The notes under the pieces: generated by a model | Told to the model about the DNA's origin: nothing | Databases searched by the model: none | Seen by the model: the letters and a program-made list of their open reading frames with translations, nothing else | Shown: one piece after another, positions 16,215-21,552 of the stretch | Layout: every line of letters starts with the position of its first letter | Position numbering within the stretch: the first letter of the stretch is position 1 | Made by a program: the position numbers and the translations under genes | Origin: Microbacterium sp. TPD7012 | GTDB taxonomy: Bacteria; Actinomycetota; Actinomycetes; Actinomycetales; Microbacteriaceae | Assembly (NCBI RefSeq): GCF_003075395.1 | Contig: NZ_QDFV01000003.1 | Span: forward strand, 124,685-188,684 | Length of the DNA: 64,000 nucleotides | Reading direction: 5' to 3'

Positions 16215-17567
16215 TCAGCCGCCCAGTGCGCTGAGCCAGGTGCGTCGAGCCTCGAGCGCATCGGCGGCAGCCTTCGCCGCCTTCTTGTCGCCGGCCTTCT
16301 CCGCCGCCGCGAGCTCGGCCTCGAGCTTCTCGATCGCCTCGAGCAGCTGCGAGCTCATGTCATTGGCGCGGGCCTTGGTCTCGGGGTTGTTCTTCTTCCA
16401 GTCGACCTCTTCGCGCGCCTTCAGAGCCTGCTCGATGACGCGGAGGCGGTCGTCCAGAGCGCGCTCCTTCTCCCGGGGGAAGACGCGTCCGATCTCGTCC
16501 CACTGCTGCTGGATGCGGGTGAGCAGCGCGCGGGCGCGCTTGATGTTCGACTCGTCGGCGACGGCCTTGGCCTCTTCGAGCAGGGCCTGACGGGCCTCGA
16601 TCTTCGGGCCGGACTCGGCCTCCTCGGCGGCGGCCTGCTCGGCGCGAGCGGCGTAGAGGGCGTCTCCTGCCGCCTTGAACTTCGCCCAGAGCGCGTCGTC
16701 GGCCTTGCGCCCGGCACGGCCGGCTGCCTTCCACTCGTCGAGCAGGTTGCGGTAGGCGGGGATGCCGTCGGTGCCGCGCGGGGCGAGAGCCTCTGCGCGC
16801 TCCACCAGACGGGACTTCGCGTCTCGAGCGACCTTGTGGGTGTCGTCGAGCTCGGAGTAGAAGGCGCGTCGCTGCTTGTCGACGACGGCGCGAGCATCGC
16901 GGAATCGCTTCCAGAGCTGCTGCGAGATGCCCTTCGACAGGCGAGGGCCGGTCTGCTGCTGCGCCTGCCAGGCGTCGAACAGCTCGCCGAGCTCGGCCGT
17001 GACCTGCTTCCACTGGACCTTGCTGAGGTCGCGCCCGGCGATCGCCTCGGCGCGCTCGACGAGGACGGTCCGCTCGGCGATCGCCTTGTCGACGAGCTCC
17101 TTCGCCTGCTGCGCCTCCTGCTCCGTGGCCTCGGAGAGCGATGCGGTGAGGGCGTTCAGACGGTCGCGCAGACCGGCGAGGTCTCCGACGGCGGCGGCAT
17201 CCGTCGCCTCGTCGATGAGGTGACCGGCCTGCTTGGCGAGATCGCTCGCGGACGCCCCGCCCGACTGCTGACGCTGCTCGAGCGCGTGCACCTTGAAGGC
17301 GATGTCGTCGAACTTGCGCACGAAGTAGGCGAGCGCTTCGTCGGGGGTCCCGTCGGGGTACTGGCCCACCACGCGCCAGGCGTCGCCCTCGCGCACCTCG
17401 ACGGTGCCGTCTTCGGACACGCGGCCCCATTCGGCGGACGACGACGAGGATGCCGGGGCCGGAGCGACCGGCGGCACGACGGCCGGTGTCGGCGCCTTCC
17501 GGGGCATCGGCACGGCGGGGGGTGCGGGAACGGGGGGAGTCGGCTTCGACGGCTCGGTGGCAGACAC
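16215..17567 (-). CDS. DUF349 domain-containing protein
   Basis: A 450-residue, highly helical protein with repeated DUF349 units. A low-complexity Pro/Ala/Ser-rich N-terminus (1-45) is followed by a short beta-like segment (WGRVSEDGTVEVREGDAW) and then helical repeats, each with the pattern LWxxFxxAxDxxYxxR. Examples are QLWKRFRDARAVVDKQRRAF and ALWAKFKAAGDALYAARAEQ. The C-terminus is a charged coiled coil. Function is not established for the family. The GTG start is preceded by AAGGAG at 7 nt. A TAGGCT -10 on the minus strand (17624-17619) is a candidate promoter in the gap shared with nirB. Confidence 0.85.
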   Translation of the reverse strand: MSATEPSKPTPPVPAPPAVPMPRKAPTPAVVPPVAPAPASSSSSAEWGRVSEDGTVEVREGDAWRVVGQYPDGTPDEALAYFVRKFDDIAFKVHALEQRQQSGGASASDLAKQAGHLIDEATDAAAVGDLAGLRDRLNALTASLSEATEQEAQQAKELVDKAIAERTVLVERAEAIAGRDLSKVQWKQVTAELGELFDAWQAQQQTGPRLSKGISQQLWKRFRDARAVVDKQRRAFYSELDDTHKVARDAKSRLVERAEALAPRGTDGIPAYRNLLDEWKAAGRAGRKADDALWAKFKAAGDALYAARAEQAAAEEAESGPKIEARQALLEEAKAVADESNIKRARALLTRIQQQWDEIGRVFPREKERALDDRLRVIEQALKAREEVDWKKNNPETKARANDMSSQLLEAIEKLEAELAAAEKAGDKKAAKAAADALEARRTWLSALGG

Positions 17568-17658
17568 GGTGATTCTCCTTGCGCGGTAAGGCCGCGGGAG
17601 GCGGAAAGGACGAGGCTCAGCCTAGTACGCCCGCGGGTTGCCGGTGAGGCCCGCCGTT

Positions 17659-17707
17659 CTCACATCATCGTTACCGATCTGTGAGGAGATCGTTCGACGG
17701 GTGAAAC
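17659..17707 (+). promoter_or_regulatory. GlnR-box-like array upstream of nirB
   Basis: Five 5-mers lie exactly 11 bp apart: CTCAC (17659), GTTAC (17670), GTGAG (17681), GTTCG (17692) and GAAAC (17703). The actinobacterial GlnR consensus is GTNAC-n6-GAAAC repeated; the second and fifth match fully and the others partly. TATCGT at 17741-17746 is a possible nirB -10, which would put the array at about -46 to -94, a position for activation. The 216-nt gap (17568-17783) holds nothing else that I recognise. Confidence 0.55.
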
Positions 17708-17783
17708 ATGCAGCGTCCTCTCCGAGAAACACGGCGCTCCTATCGTCGCCAGCACGACAGTTCCCCCGGTCGACAGGAGCCCC

Positions 17784-20363
17784 ATGAACGACACCGCATC
17801 CACGCCGCACGAGATCCTGGTCGTCGGAGCGGGCATGGTGGCGCATCGATTCGTGGAGAGCCTGCTCAGCCGCGCCGACGCGGATGTGCGTGTCACCGTC
17901 ATCGGCGACGAGGGGCGCGGGCCATACGACCGCGTGGGGCTGACGAGCTTCTTCTCGGGCGCCACCCCGGACGACCTCGAACTCGACCGCTCGGTCTTCC
18001 GCGACGCGCGGGTGCGTCTGATCCAGAACGATCGCGTCCTGCGCATCGATCGCTCCGCCCGCTCGGTGCGCACGCGCTCGCGTCGCAACTACGACTACGA
18101 CACGCTCGTGCTCGCCACCGGCTCCTACGCCGCCAGGGTGGCCGTGGACGGCGCCGATCTCCCCGGCTGCTTCGTCTACCGCACGCTCGACGACGTGCAG
18201 GCGCTCCGGGACTTCGTCTCCCGGCGGGCGAGCGCGCTCGGCCGCCCTCTGCGCGGCGCGGTCATCGGCGGCGGCCTGCTGGGCCTGGAGGCGGCGGGTG
18301 CGCTCCAGGGGCTGGACGTCGACACCACGGTCGTGCAGTACTCGGACCGCCTGATGTCGGCGCAGCTCGATCAGGCCGGTGGCGGCATGCTGAAGCGTCT
18401 GCTCGAGGCCCGCGGCATCACGGTGCGCACGCAGGCACGGACGACGAGGCTCGACCCGGACGAGTCCGGGGCGGTCACGGCACTGGAGTTCCAGGACGGC
18501 TCGTTCCAGCGGGCCGATGTCGTCGTGTTCACGGTCGGCGTGCGCCCGCGGGACGAGTTGGCGCGAAACGCCGAGCTGGAGGTGCACCCGCGGGGCGGTG
18601 TGCTGATCGACGAGCGGTGCTCGACGTCCGACCCGAACATCCTCGCGATCGGCGAGGTCGCCAACTTCGACGACCGATGCGTCGGCCTCGTGGCTCCGGG
18701 GTACGCGATGGCGGAGGTCGCGGCCACCCGGCTGCTCGGAGGAGACGCAGGCTTCCCCGGCTACGACGAATCCGCCAAGCTCAAGCTCTCGGGTGTCGAC
18801 GTGGCGAGCTTCGGCGATGCGCTCGCCCGTACCCCCGACGCGCTCGACGTCGTCTACGCCGATCCCGTGGCGGGCGTCTACAAGAAGCTCGTGCTCTCGG
18901 ACGACGCGCAGACGCTGCTCGGCGGCATCCTCGTCGGCGACGCGAGCGCCTACGGCTCGCTGCGGCCGCTCGTGGGTGCCAGGCTCGGTGCCGATCCGTC
19001 GGCCTACCTGCTGCCGGAAGGGGGCAACGCCGCACCGATGGGGGAGCTCCCGGACGAAGCCGTCGTGTGCTCGTGCTCCAACGTCTCGGCGGGGCGGATC
19101 CGCCAGGCCGTGCACGAGGAGGGCTGCCGGGATGCGGCGGCCGTCAAGGGGTGCACGAAGGCGGGCGCGACCTGCGGCTCGTGCGTGCTGATGGTCAAGA
19201 AGGTGGTCGGGCAGGAGCTCACCAAGCTCGGCCAGACGGTGTCGAACGCGCTGTGCGAGCACTTCGACATGTCGCGCCGTCAGCTGTTCGACGCCGTGCG
19301 GATCGCCGAGCTGTCGACGTTCAGCTCGATCGTCGAGCGCTTCGGACGCGGTCGCGGCTGCGACATCTGCAAGCCCGCGATCGCCAGCATCCTGTCGGGA
19401 CTCGTCGGCCAACACGTGCTCGAGGGCGAGAACGCCACGCTCCAGGACACCAACGATCACGTGATGGCGAACATGCAGAAGGACGGCACCTACTCCGTCG
19501 TCCCGCGGATGCCGGGCGGCGAGGTGACGCCGGACGGCCTGTTGGCGATCGGGCAGATCGCGAAGGACTTCGCCCTGTACACGAAGATCACGGGCGGTCA
19601 GCGCATCGACATGTTCGGCGCGCGTCTGGAGCAGCTGCCGCTGATCTGGGAGCGGCTGGTGGATGCCGGCTTCGAATCCGGTCACGCCTACGGCAAGTCG
19701 CTGCGCACGGTGAAGTCGTGCGTGGGGTCGACCTGGTGCCGCTACGGCGTGCTGGACGCGGTGGGCATGGCCGTGAAGCTGGAGCTGCGGTACCGCGGGC
19801 TGCGCGCACCGCACAAGCTGAAGCTCGGTGTCTCGGGATGCGCGCGGGAGTGCGCGGAGGCCCGCTCGAAGGACGTAGGGATCATCGCGACGGAGAACGG
19901 GTGGAACATGTACGTCGGCGGCAACGGCGGCTTCACGCCGCGGCACGCGCAGCTGCTCGCGTCGGAGCTCGACGACGAGGGTCTGATCCGCGCGATCGAC
20001 CGGTTCTTCATGTACTACATCCGCACGGCCGATCGGCTGCAGCGCACGGCTCCCTGGTGCGAGGAGGTCGAGGGAGGACTCGACGGCCTCCGGTCCGTGA
20101 TCTTCGACGACAGCCTCGGGATCTGCGACGATCTCGACGCCGCGATGGCGCTGCACGTGGAGCACTACGAGGACGAGTGGGCCGCGACGCTGAAGGATCC
20201 CCAGAAGCTCGAGAGGTTCCGCTCCTTCGTCAACGCGGCGGACACCCCTGACCCGTCCCTCGGGTACGTGGCCGAGCGCGGGCAGATCAGGCCGGCGACG
20301 GCCGAGGAGCGACGTTCGGGCGCGGTCCTGATCGCCGGGACGGCACTGGAGGTACGACGATGA
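17784..20363 (+). CDS. nirB: nitrite reductase [NAD(P)H] large subunit
   Basis: An 859-residue cytoplasmic enzyme that reduces nitrite to ammonium. Domains in order: FAD/NAD(P)-binding pyridine nucleotide-disulfide oxidoreductase (1-400, VVGAGMVAHRFVE near the start); two BFD-like [2Fe-2S] segments (about 427-470 with CSCSN, CTKAGATCGSC; about 489-535 with CDICKPA); and the sulfite/nitrite reductase ferredoxin-like and catalytic parts. The siroheme/[4Fe-4S] cysteines are CVGSTWC (about 642) and GVSGCARECAEA (about 682). AGGAG lies 7 nt before the ATG. It overlaps nirD by 4 nt (ATGA). Confidence 0.97.
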   Translation: MNDTASTPHEILVVGAGMVAHRFVESLLSRADADVRVTVIGDEGRGPYDRVGLTSFFSGATPDDLELDRSVFRDARVRLIQNDRVLRIDRSARSVRTRSRRNYDYDTLVLATGSYAARVAVDGADLPGCFVYRTLDDVQALRDFVSRRASALGRPLRGAVIGGGLLGLEAAGALQGLDVDTTVVQYSDRLMSAQLDQAGGGMLKRLLEARGITVRTQARTTRLDPDESGAVTALEFQDGSFQRADVVVFTVGVRPRDELARNAELEVHPRGGVLIDERCSTSDPNILAIGEVANFDDRCVGLVAPGYAMAEVAATRLLGGDAGFPGYDESAKLKLSGVDVASFGDALARTPDALDVVYADPVAGVYKKLVLSDDAQTLLGGILVGDASAYGSLRPLVGARLGADPSAYLLPEGGNAAPMGELPDEAVVCSCSNVSAGRIRQAVHEEGCRDAAAVKGCTKAGATCGSCVLMVKKVVGQELTKLGQTVSNALCEHFDMSRRQLFDAVRIAELSTFSSIVERFGRGRGCDICKPAIASILSGLVGQHVLEGENATLQDTNDHVMANMQKDGTYSVVPRMPGGEVTPDGLLAIGQIAKDFALYTKITGGQRIDMFGARLEQLPLIWERLVDAGFESGHAYGKSLRTVKSCVGSTWCRYGVLDAVGMAVKLELRYRGLRAPHKLKLGVSGCARECAEARSKDVGIIATENGWNMYVGGNGGFTPRHAQLLASELDDEGLIRAIDRFFMYYIRTADRLQRTAPWCEEVEGGLDGLRSVIFDDSLGICDDLDAAMALHVEHYEDEWAATLKDPQKLERFRSFVNAADTPDPSLGYVAERGQIRPATAEERRSGAVLIAGTALEVRR

Positions 20364-20740
20364 CCGGTCTGATCGCGGAGGAGACCCTGGTGCGCATCTG
20401 CGCGATCTCCGACCTCGAGGTCGAGCGCGGGCGCGCGGCGCTGCTCGGCAGCGAGCAGCTGGCGCTGTTCCTGCTCGCCGACGGCACGGTGCACGCCGTG
20501 TCGAACCTCGATCCGTACAGCGGCGCGAACGTGATCTCCCGCGGCATCGTGGGGACCAGGGGAGAGGCGCCGACGGTCGCGTCGCCGTTGCACAAGCAGG
20601 TGTTCGACCTGCGCACCGGGGCGTGCCTGGAGACGCAGGGGAAGCCGGATGCGTCGTTGCGGGTGTACCCCGTCCGGGTGACGGCCGACGGGGTGCATGT
20701 CGACGTCGCGGGGGCTGCCGCCGGGGAGGACGGCGCATGA
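20360..20740 (+). CDS. nirD: nitrite reductase small subunit NirD
   Basis: A 126-residue Rieske-fold subunit of the assimilatory nitrite reductase. It has the beta-rich Rieske-like layout with ALLGSEQLALFLLADGTVHAVSN, NVISRGIVGTRGE and SPLHKQVFDLRTG, but the iron-sulfur Cys/His ligands are absent, as is normal for NirD. It overlaps nirB upstream and cobA downstream by 4 nt each, so translation of the three is probably coupled. Confidence 0.95.
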   Translation: MTGLIAEETLVRICAISDLEVERGRAALLGSEQLALFLLADGTVHAVSNLDPYSGANVISRGIVGTRGEAPTVASPLHKQVFDLRTGACLETQGKPDASLRVYPVRVTADGVHVDVAGAAAGEDGA

Positions 20741-21552
20741 TGTTCCGGTTCCGTCGGAGGAGGACGGCAGGATCGTGGACGAGCGGCGGATCGACGCGTG
20801 TGGGGCGCGTCGATCTCGTCGGCGGCGGACCGGGGCCCGCCGATCTGATGACCCTGAGGGCCCATCGTCTGCTCGCCGAGGCCGACGTGGTGGTCGCCGA
20901 TCGGCTGGGTCCGGCGGACGAGGTGCGGGCGCAGCTCGGTCCTGAGGTCATCGTCATCGACGTCGGCAAGCGTCCGGGGCATCACCCGGTGCCGCAGGCG
21001 CAGATCAACGCACTCCTCGTCGACCATGCGCGGGCGGGAAGGCGCGTCGTGCGTCTGAAGGGGGGCGATCCCTTCGTCCTCGGTCGTGGAGGCGAGGAGG
21101 TGCTCGCCTGCGAGGCCGCGGGCATCCCCGTCTCGGTGACACCCGGGGTGAGCAGTGCGATCTCCGTGCCCCAGGCGGCCGGCATCCCGGTGACGCATCG
21201 CGGCGTGGCATCCGCCCTGCACGTGGTGAACGGCCAGGGGCCGTTCACCGACAGCACCCTGTCGTCGCTCGCCGACCCGTCCGTGACCACGGTCGTGCTG
21301 ATGGGCGTGGCCGCGCTCCCTCGGCTGGTCGATGCGGCGCTCCGACACGGCATCCCCGTCGATCGTCCGGTCGCGGTCGTCGAGAACGGGCACACGCCGC
21401 GACAGCGCACGGTGCGCAGCACCCTGGGCGCTATCGTGGCCGACGCAGAGGAGGCCGCCGTGGTCAATCCCGCCGTGATCGTGATCGGCGACGTCGCACG
21501 CGCCGGACTGCTGCTGCCCACGACGTCGCAGTTCGCGGAGAGCTCGGCGTGA
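20737..21552 (+). CDS. cobA: uroporphyrinogen-III C-methyltransferase
   Basis: A 271-residue SAM-dependent enzyme that methylates uroporphyrinogen III to precorrin-2, the precursor of the siroheme needed by NirB. Signatures are VGGGPGPADLMTLRA, the SUMT motif VVRLKGGDPFVLGRGGEE and VTPGVSSAISVP. The ATG follows GGGGAGG by 7 nt; a second ATG directly after is possible. The first 25 residues are basic and Arg-rich and precede the catalytic domain. No CysG-type oxidase/chelatase part is fused, so siroheme must be finished by a protein encoded elsewhere. Confidence 0.94.
   Translation: MMFRFRRRRTAGSWTSGGSTRVGRVDLVGGGPGPADLMTLRAHRLLAEADVVVADRLGPADEVRAQLGPEVIVIDVGKRPGHHPVPQAQINALLVDHARAGRRVVRLKGGDPFVLGRGGEEVLACEAAGIPVSVTPGVSSAISVPQAAGIPVTHRGVASALHVVNGQGPFTDSTLSSLADPSVTTVVLMGVAALPRLVDAALRHGIPVDRPVAVVENGHTPRQRTVRSTLGAIVADAEEAAVVNPAVIVIGDVARAGLLLPTTSQFAESSA

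Follow-up and report, generated by a model that had tools for sequence, protein, structure and literature searches.

Pentamers upstream of nirB

Is the DNA upstream of nirB in Microbacterium sp. TPD7012 one long array of GlnR half-sites, or does it combine sites for more than one regulator? In the window (the whole stretch of 64,000 nucleotides that was analysed, from a host genome of 4.08 Mb) five pentamers, CTCAC, GTTAC, GTGAG, GTTCG and GAAAC, start at 17659, 17670, 17681, 17692 and 17703, with every start-to-start step being 11 bp. The original prediction took them for five GlnR-like half-sites ahead of a possible -10 element at 17741 and of nirB; the positions, the spacing, the hexamer (TATCGT) and the identity of the gene were all exact (Table 1). 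Scored against GTNAC and GAAAC, whichever fits better at each site, the pentamers carry 1, 0, 1, 2 and 0 mismatches. On its two strands the window holds a single array as good as this one; 40 windows simulated with a first-order Markov model average 0.1. Since the motif was chosen after the fact, the array alone is weak evidence, and the reality of the promoter element is argued below from conservation rather than from the rarity of five sites in a row.

Table 1. Features of the nirB promoter and of the genes that follow it (positions in the window).
Feature	Position	Strand	Remarks
Inverted repeat CTCACA-N15-TGTGAG, putative NnaR site	17659..17685	.	Arms 17659-17664 and 17680-17685
GTTAC in palindrome spacer, possible extra GlnR/OmpR-type a-site	17670..17674	+	11 bp before GTGAG
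GlnR-type box 1: a1 GTTCG-n6-b1 GAAAC	17692..17707	+	b1 G[ACT]AAC in 48/48 named loci
GlnR-type box 2: a2 GTCCT (weak)-n6-b2 GAAAC	17715..17730	+	b2 in 45/48 named loci
-10 element TATCGT (TANNNT)	17741..17746	+	10 bp after b2
nirB, nitrite reductase large subunit	17784..20363	+	NCBIfam TIGR02374, 984.6 bits
nirD, nitrite reductase small subunit	20360..20740	+	NCBIfam TIGR02378, above cut-off
cobA-type uroporphyrinogen-III C-methyltransferase (siroheme branch)	20737..21552	+	NCBIfam TIGR01469, above cut-off
nnaR, HemD-like domain + OmpR-type winged helix	21549..22676	+	Pfam HEM4, Trans_reg_C; NCBIfam PRK07239, 393.6 bits

The gene lies opposite a divergent gene for a DUF349 protein and belongs to a predicted nirB-nirD-cobA-nnaR operon. 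For cobA we chose the ATG that overlaps the nirD stop, inside a long ORF (20623-21552) of which residues 61-293 match TIGR01469. The final gene, nnaR, encodes 375 aa, and its domain combination is the NnaR architecture as described in PMC6277429 and PMC11162112; the nearest named relative of the protein, at 94% identity, is from Microbacterium sp. SA39.

The GlnR orthologue that the original prediction pointed to is present in the genome (229 aa, G000:C4:437290-437976; best matches 8hih, 8hig, 4o1i and 4o1h, 'Transcription regulator GlnR'), and an MtrA orthologue is encoded as well. At E <= 1e-60, a search of 73 genomes found GlnR in 66, among them 43 of the 44 from the genus, our own included; the one genus genome lacking a match is 44% complete. 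Similar arrays also occur where they had been suspected, at glnA and amtB, genes identified by Gln-synt_C and Ammonium_transp matches. The glnA promoter reads GTAAC-n6-GAAAC-n6-GACAC-n6-GAAAC-n10-TACTGT, and that of amtB, with two departures from this array, GTAAC-n6-GAAAC-n6-CACGC-n6-GAAAC-n10-CACACT, so that in both a final GAAAC ends 10 bases ahead of a -10-like hexamer. Allowing up to three mismatches, a pattern derived from the two promoters matched the genome only at these two places (0 and 2 mismatches) and the control nowhere; because it was written after both had been read, this measures rarity, not prediction. At amtB (L064, L082) an additional GTAAC-n6-TTCAC further upstream is possibly a third GlnR box.

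An NnaR-type palindrome and two GlnR-type boxes

The first and third pentamers, CTCAC and GTGAG, form the arms of the inverted repeat CTCACA-N15-TGTGAG. The NnaR motif of M. smegmatis is given in PMC6277429 as ctCAC(a/c)-16N-(t/g)GTGag, beside a GlnR box; the arms in the window match it at 12 of 12 positions, with a spacer of 15 instead of 16. As described in the same paper, binding by NnaR was absent at 2 uM for a mycobacterial site short of one base, and the msmeg_5360 site, which has the full motif, was likewise left unbound by mycobacterial NnaR. The exact palindrome with a spacer of 15 or 16 is present in a single copy in the host genome, the one before nirB, and no second palindrome was seen in the window. 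A genome search for further NnaR sites with up to two mismatches returned 31 forward matches, the same as the 31 in the control, and bare arms with spacers of 16-18 occurred 7 times in the genome against 5 in the control. Over 73 relatives, the exact pattern (spacer 15 or 16) was found in 22 copies in 19 genomes, compared with 5 in a reversed control.

TGTGA and TCACA both occur in this repeat, and we also considered a site for CRP. A CRP-type site is TGTGA-n6-TCACA; here the arms face outwards across a 15-base gap, and this candidate was rejected.

Downstream of the palindrome lie two GlnR-type boxes, in which b1 and b2 are perfect, a1 and a2 have two mismatches each, and one extra base separates the boxes. 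The second box had been overlooked by the original prediction. It is the GAAAC at 17726, and not the one at 17703, that constitutes the promoter-proximal site, since its n10 distance to the -10 element is the same as in glnA and amtB. In two relatives (L012 and L014) the second box reads GTCAC-n6-GAAAC. In the A. mediterranei nas promoter a1, b1 and b2 are required and a2 is not, and the boxes of nasA are separated by 1 bp, according to the review PMC10704036; both descriptions agree with the weakness of a2 and with the additional base found here. We could not find a recognisable -35 element: a sigma-70 consensus pair was sought at 17500-17900 without success, and an ordinary sigma-70 promoter was rejected on that ground. 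Finally, the gap between the right arm and a1 (17686-17691) reads GAGATC in the window and is GAAAC-like in other lineages; over 41 promoters it carries 1.04 bits per column, above a plain spacer, implying that recognition there may extend beyond the pentamers.

Conservation of the promoter

To follow this arrangement through relatives we collected 49 nirB upstream regions, 47 from the same genus and 2 from outside it (30 automatic loci plus 19 fetched). CTCACN-N14-17-NGTGA(G/T) was present within 500 bp in 37 of the 49. These, together with four added by the right arm only (L013, L040, L050, L052), made up 41 promoters for a column analysis; L025, L032, L035, L036, L039, L053, L056 and L058 were left out. 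Information reached 1.65 bits per column in the right arm, 1.54 in a1, 1.68 in b1, 1.68 in b2 and 1.21 in the -10 element, as compared to 0.11 upstream, 0.17 in the gap between b1 and a2 and 0.22 in a2 (flanks and most spacers overall, 0.1-0.6); the rows were mostly picked by the palindrome, making arm conservation partly a matter of construction, and many are close relatives rather than independent. At fixed offsets, a1 read GTTCG in 34 of the 41, b1 GTAAC or GAAAC in 38 and b2 GAAAC or GTAAC in 35, while TANNNT was in place in 36.

A second sample came from a protein search for NnaR, which gave 72 named loci, mostly Microbacterium, the other named genera including Cellulosimicrobium, Cellulomonas, Aeromicrobium, Mumia and Tessaracoccus. 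As all were selected for NnaR, they are no test of whether palindrome and NnaR occur together; the phasing of b1, b2 and the -10 element played no part in the selection. Of the 72, 62 include the start of nirB and no less than 350 bp ahead of it. Within 300 bp of nirB, 48 of these 62 carry CTCAC(A/C)-N15/16-(T/G/C)GTGAG, with a spacer of 15 in 25 and of 16 in 23, and for 33 of these loci the label is Microbacterium or Microbacteriaceae. The remaining 843,667 bases of the 62 loci hold 9 palindromes, and when spacers of 8-25 were scanned, only 14 (once), 15 and 16 were seen near nirB. All 48 have G[ACT]AAC at exactly +22 from GTGAG (b1); a second one (b2) follows at +45 in 31 and at +44 in 14, and is absent in 3. 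TANNNT then lies exactly 15 bp past the b2 start in all 45 loci having b2. The word at a1 is GTTCG in 30, GTTAC in 9 and something else in 9; the nine GTTAC at the same place fit a GlnR a-site exactly, which argues that GTTCG in the window is a1. Among the 14 loci lacking the strict palindrome, 10 scored above the inclusion threshold of the module model and 4 below it.

Further afield, 6 of 20 longer stretches (4 from Microbacterium, 16 from outside the genus) contain a looser palindrome, against 0.23 expected from shuffles; one of the 6 (L098) has no boxes after it. The module model scored above threshold in 10 of the 20, and in only 6 of the 16 from other genera.

These data bear on whether the array could have arisen by chance and have no function, as an expectation of about 0.1 such array per window might by itself allow. 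Over 41 promoters the right arm, a1, b1 and b2 hold 1.5-1.7 bits per column, and the phasing of b1, b2 and the -10 element is fixed in the 48 named loci; chance is refuted for the palindrome, b1 and b2, and we regard a functionless array as next to impossible.

The same alignments show what became of the five half-sites. The pentamers are not all conserved in phase as direct half-sites: GTTCG and GAAAC are kept as a GlnR-type box, CTCAC and GTGAG as arms of an inverted repeat of NnaR type, and GTTAC only locally. A single array, with GlnR dimers bound in tandem on all five, would agree with the uniform 11-bp steps, the presence of a GlnR gene and the conservation of GTTAC-n6-GTGAG in the lineage of the window. 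Such an array is nevertheless very improbable and was rejected: relatives vary between 11 and 12 bp in the distance from the start of CTCAC to that of GTTAC, the inverted repeat is kept in 28 promoters of other lineages in which GTTAC is missing, and b2, conserved in 45 of 48 loci, is omitted. The original prediction thus suspected GlnR rightly and mis-parsed the layout, which would run from an NnaR palindrome through a1-b1 to a2-b2.

GTTAC inside the palindrome

The pentamer in the palindrome spacer follows different rules from the rest. Among the 13 promoters of the window lineage it reads GTTAC in 10 and GTTAT in 3, and it is found in none of the 28 from other lineages; its columns average 1.71 bits in the former and 0.16 in the latter. 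In the window lineage the positions to the left of the word are unconstrained. The word keeps a constant distance from the right arm; from the left arm the distance is 11 or 12, changing with the spacer of 15 or 16. In L108, a named locus of the window lineage with the left arm TTCACA, GTCAC occupies this position. The 48 named loci have GTTAC there in 14, GTTAT in 1, GTCAC in 2 and GTAAC in 1; the two GTCAC and the GTAAC, which come from other lineages, may be chance matches.

One reading is that GTTAC-n6-GTGAG forms a third GlnR box that would share five bases with the NnaR site, in which case the two regulators would be interlocked and not side by side. GTTAC persists in three relatives with nnaR missing or truncated and an eroded left arm; the operons of these three are decayed, which counts against interlocking, and the three GTTAT deviate from GTnAC. 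On balance we find an interlocked third box conceivable, with the odds somewhat against it. GTTAC may alternatively be an MtrA site, or part of how NnaR of this lineage reads its target.

A probable composite NnaR-GlnR promoter

The arrangement as a whole very probably forms the heart of a composite promoter that drives nirB-nirD-cobA-nnaR, depends on activators and uses both NnaR and GlnR. NnaR would bind the palindrome and GlnR would bind a1-b1-(a2)-b2 directly downstream, ending 10 bp before a -10 element that has no recognisable -35 partner. The right-arm GTGAG begins 11 bp, or one helical turn, before a1, which would place both proteins on the same face of the DNA. Under nitrogen shortage, when the cell must turn to nitrate or nitrite, NnaR and GlnR would help each other to recruit RNA polymerase, and as nnaR is the final gene of the operon, activation would constitute positive feedback. 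The anatomy, its conservation, the fixed phasing, both regulator genes and the glnA and amtB arrays are established by sequence. From these we infer binding, cooperativity, the response to nitrogen, transcription as an operon, the feedback and any sensing by the HemD-like domain.

Several observations speak against this composite promoter. The spacer is 15 and not the mycobacterial 16, and in mycobacteria a site one base too short went unbound (as described in PMC6277429); a1 (GTTCG) is two mismatches away from GTNAC; and the strict palindrome is lacking in 14 of the 62 NnaR-carrying loci and is present in a single exact copy in the genome. Regarding the first of these, a spacer of 15 is as frequent before nirB as one of 16, suggesting that either NnaR is more tolerant here or its arms are read differently.

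The GTnAC words could also be bound by MtrA, or by a different member of the OmpR family (PhoP, for example), that would compete with GlnR and repress. An MtrA orthologue is encoded, the MtrA and GlnR motifs are described as nearly identical and MtrA as binding mycobacterial nirB (PMC6277429), and competition with GlnR is cited for Streptomyces in the review PMC10704036. The b2-to--10 distance, however, equals that in glnA and amtB, and nnaR lies in the operon; MtrA in place of GlnR strikes us as an outside chance, while MtrA as an additional binder alongside GlnR is compatible with both of these observations.

Comparison with known systems

A switch of the composite NnaR-GlnR kind is already known from Streptomyces and mycobacteria, and its layout can be read here base pair by base pair. 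Cooperative binding of NnaR with GlnR at the nirB promoter is reported for S. coelicolor (PMC10704036). That promoter (Amin et al. 2012, as presented in PMC10704036, PMC6277429 and PMC11162112) has the same target gene, both regulators and an NnaR site beside GlnR boxes; the likeness is by description, not by site sequence, and in Microbacterium nnaR lies inside the nirB operon. With the M. smegmatis motif (as given in PMC6277429) the palindrome shares its arms and their orientation, and in both a GlnR box follows at near-constant distance; unlike it, the window has a spacer of 15 (15 or 16 in relatives), and its lineage has GTTAC within that spacer. Compared with the S. coelicolor GlnR box, (gTnAc-n6-GaAAc)2, and the A. 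mediterranei nas promoter, both as presented in PMC10704036, a1, b1 and b2 are conserved here and a2 is degenerate or dispensable, and the 1-bp gap of nasA (PMC10704036) recurs; in contrast to the a-b-a-b box, a1 is GTTCG in most Microbacterium and the distance from box to NnaR arm is fixed. The two regulators of this switch are probably bound as neighbours along the DNA.

These results extend the NnaR-GlnR promoter of nitrite assimilation to Microbacterium and also to some loci of Cellulosimicrobium, Aeromicrobium, Mumia, Tessaracoccus and Pedococcus. In our search we found no literature on NnaR in Micrococcales, and Microbacterium and NnaR are co-named in a review, in unrelated places. The fixed geometry from NnaR arm to -10 element predicts contacts among both proteins and RNA polymerase. 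Moreover, orthologous nirB genes naturally come with spacers of both 15 and 16, making the mycobacterial spacing question directly testable.

Decayed operons and additional modules

Three decayed nir operons, L103 (G066), L104 (G002) and L105 (G040), have a shortened nirB, and nirD was not detected in them. NnaR appears in G066 only as a 30% match at the level of HemD, and in G002 and G040 as its C-terminal part only. The left arms of all three are eroded, and parts of the promoter persist. Loss of nnaR alongside loss of the palindrome is no more than suggestive; general decay explains the erosion of the arm as well, as nirB is also truncated in these genomes. Separately, in L025 (G023), a fragmented assembly, nirB has an upstream region without the palindrome, and sequence like that of the divergent-gene side joins the b1 region directly; either a deletion or a misassembly would account for this.

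In 10 of the 72 named loci an additional palindrome lies past nnaR. In 8 of them (L108, L110, L112, L114, L116, L117, L120 and L123, all Microbacterium) it is followed on the other strand by GTAAC at +22 and GAAAC at +44; the remaining 2 had no match in that orientation. The gene starting at this second palindrome looked alike by eye in the 6 loci inspected; it was a formate/nitrite transporter on testing in L112, and had the look of one by eye in L108, L110, L116 and L120. Hexamers at the -10 place are NANNNT, without TANNNT, and the a1 word is GCNNC, making the second module weaker evidence.

In four members of the genus (L032, L035, L036 and L039) a palindrome directly before nirB was not found, and the gene before nirB resembles, by eye, a formate/nitrite transporter. 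Their longer stretches contain the strict pattern in L094, a model match over the palindrome in L095, and the b2/-10 part only in L093 and L096. These four, together with L018, L020, L021, L026 and L028, carry a second GlnR-type array directly before nirB. It reads GTNAA-n6-GNAAC-n6-N5-n6-GNAAC-n10-TANNNT, a strict pattern present in 9 of the 49 regions and not in the window. As the array lies 6 bases before an ATG, a transcript starting from it would be leaderless.
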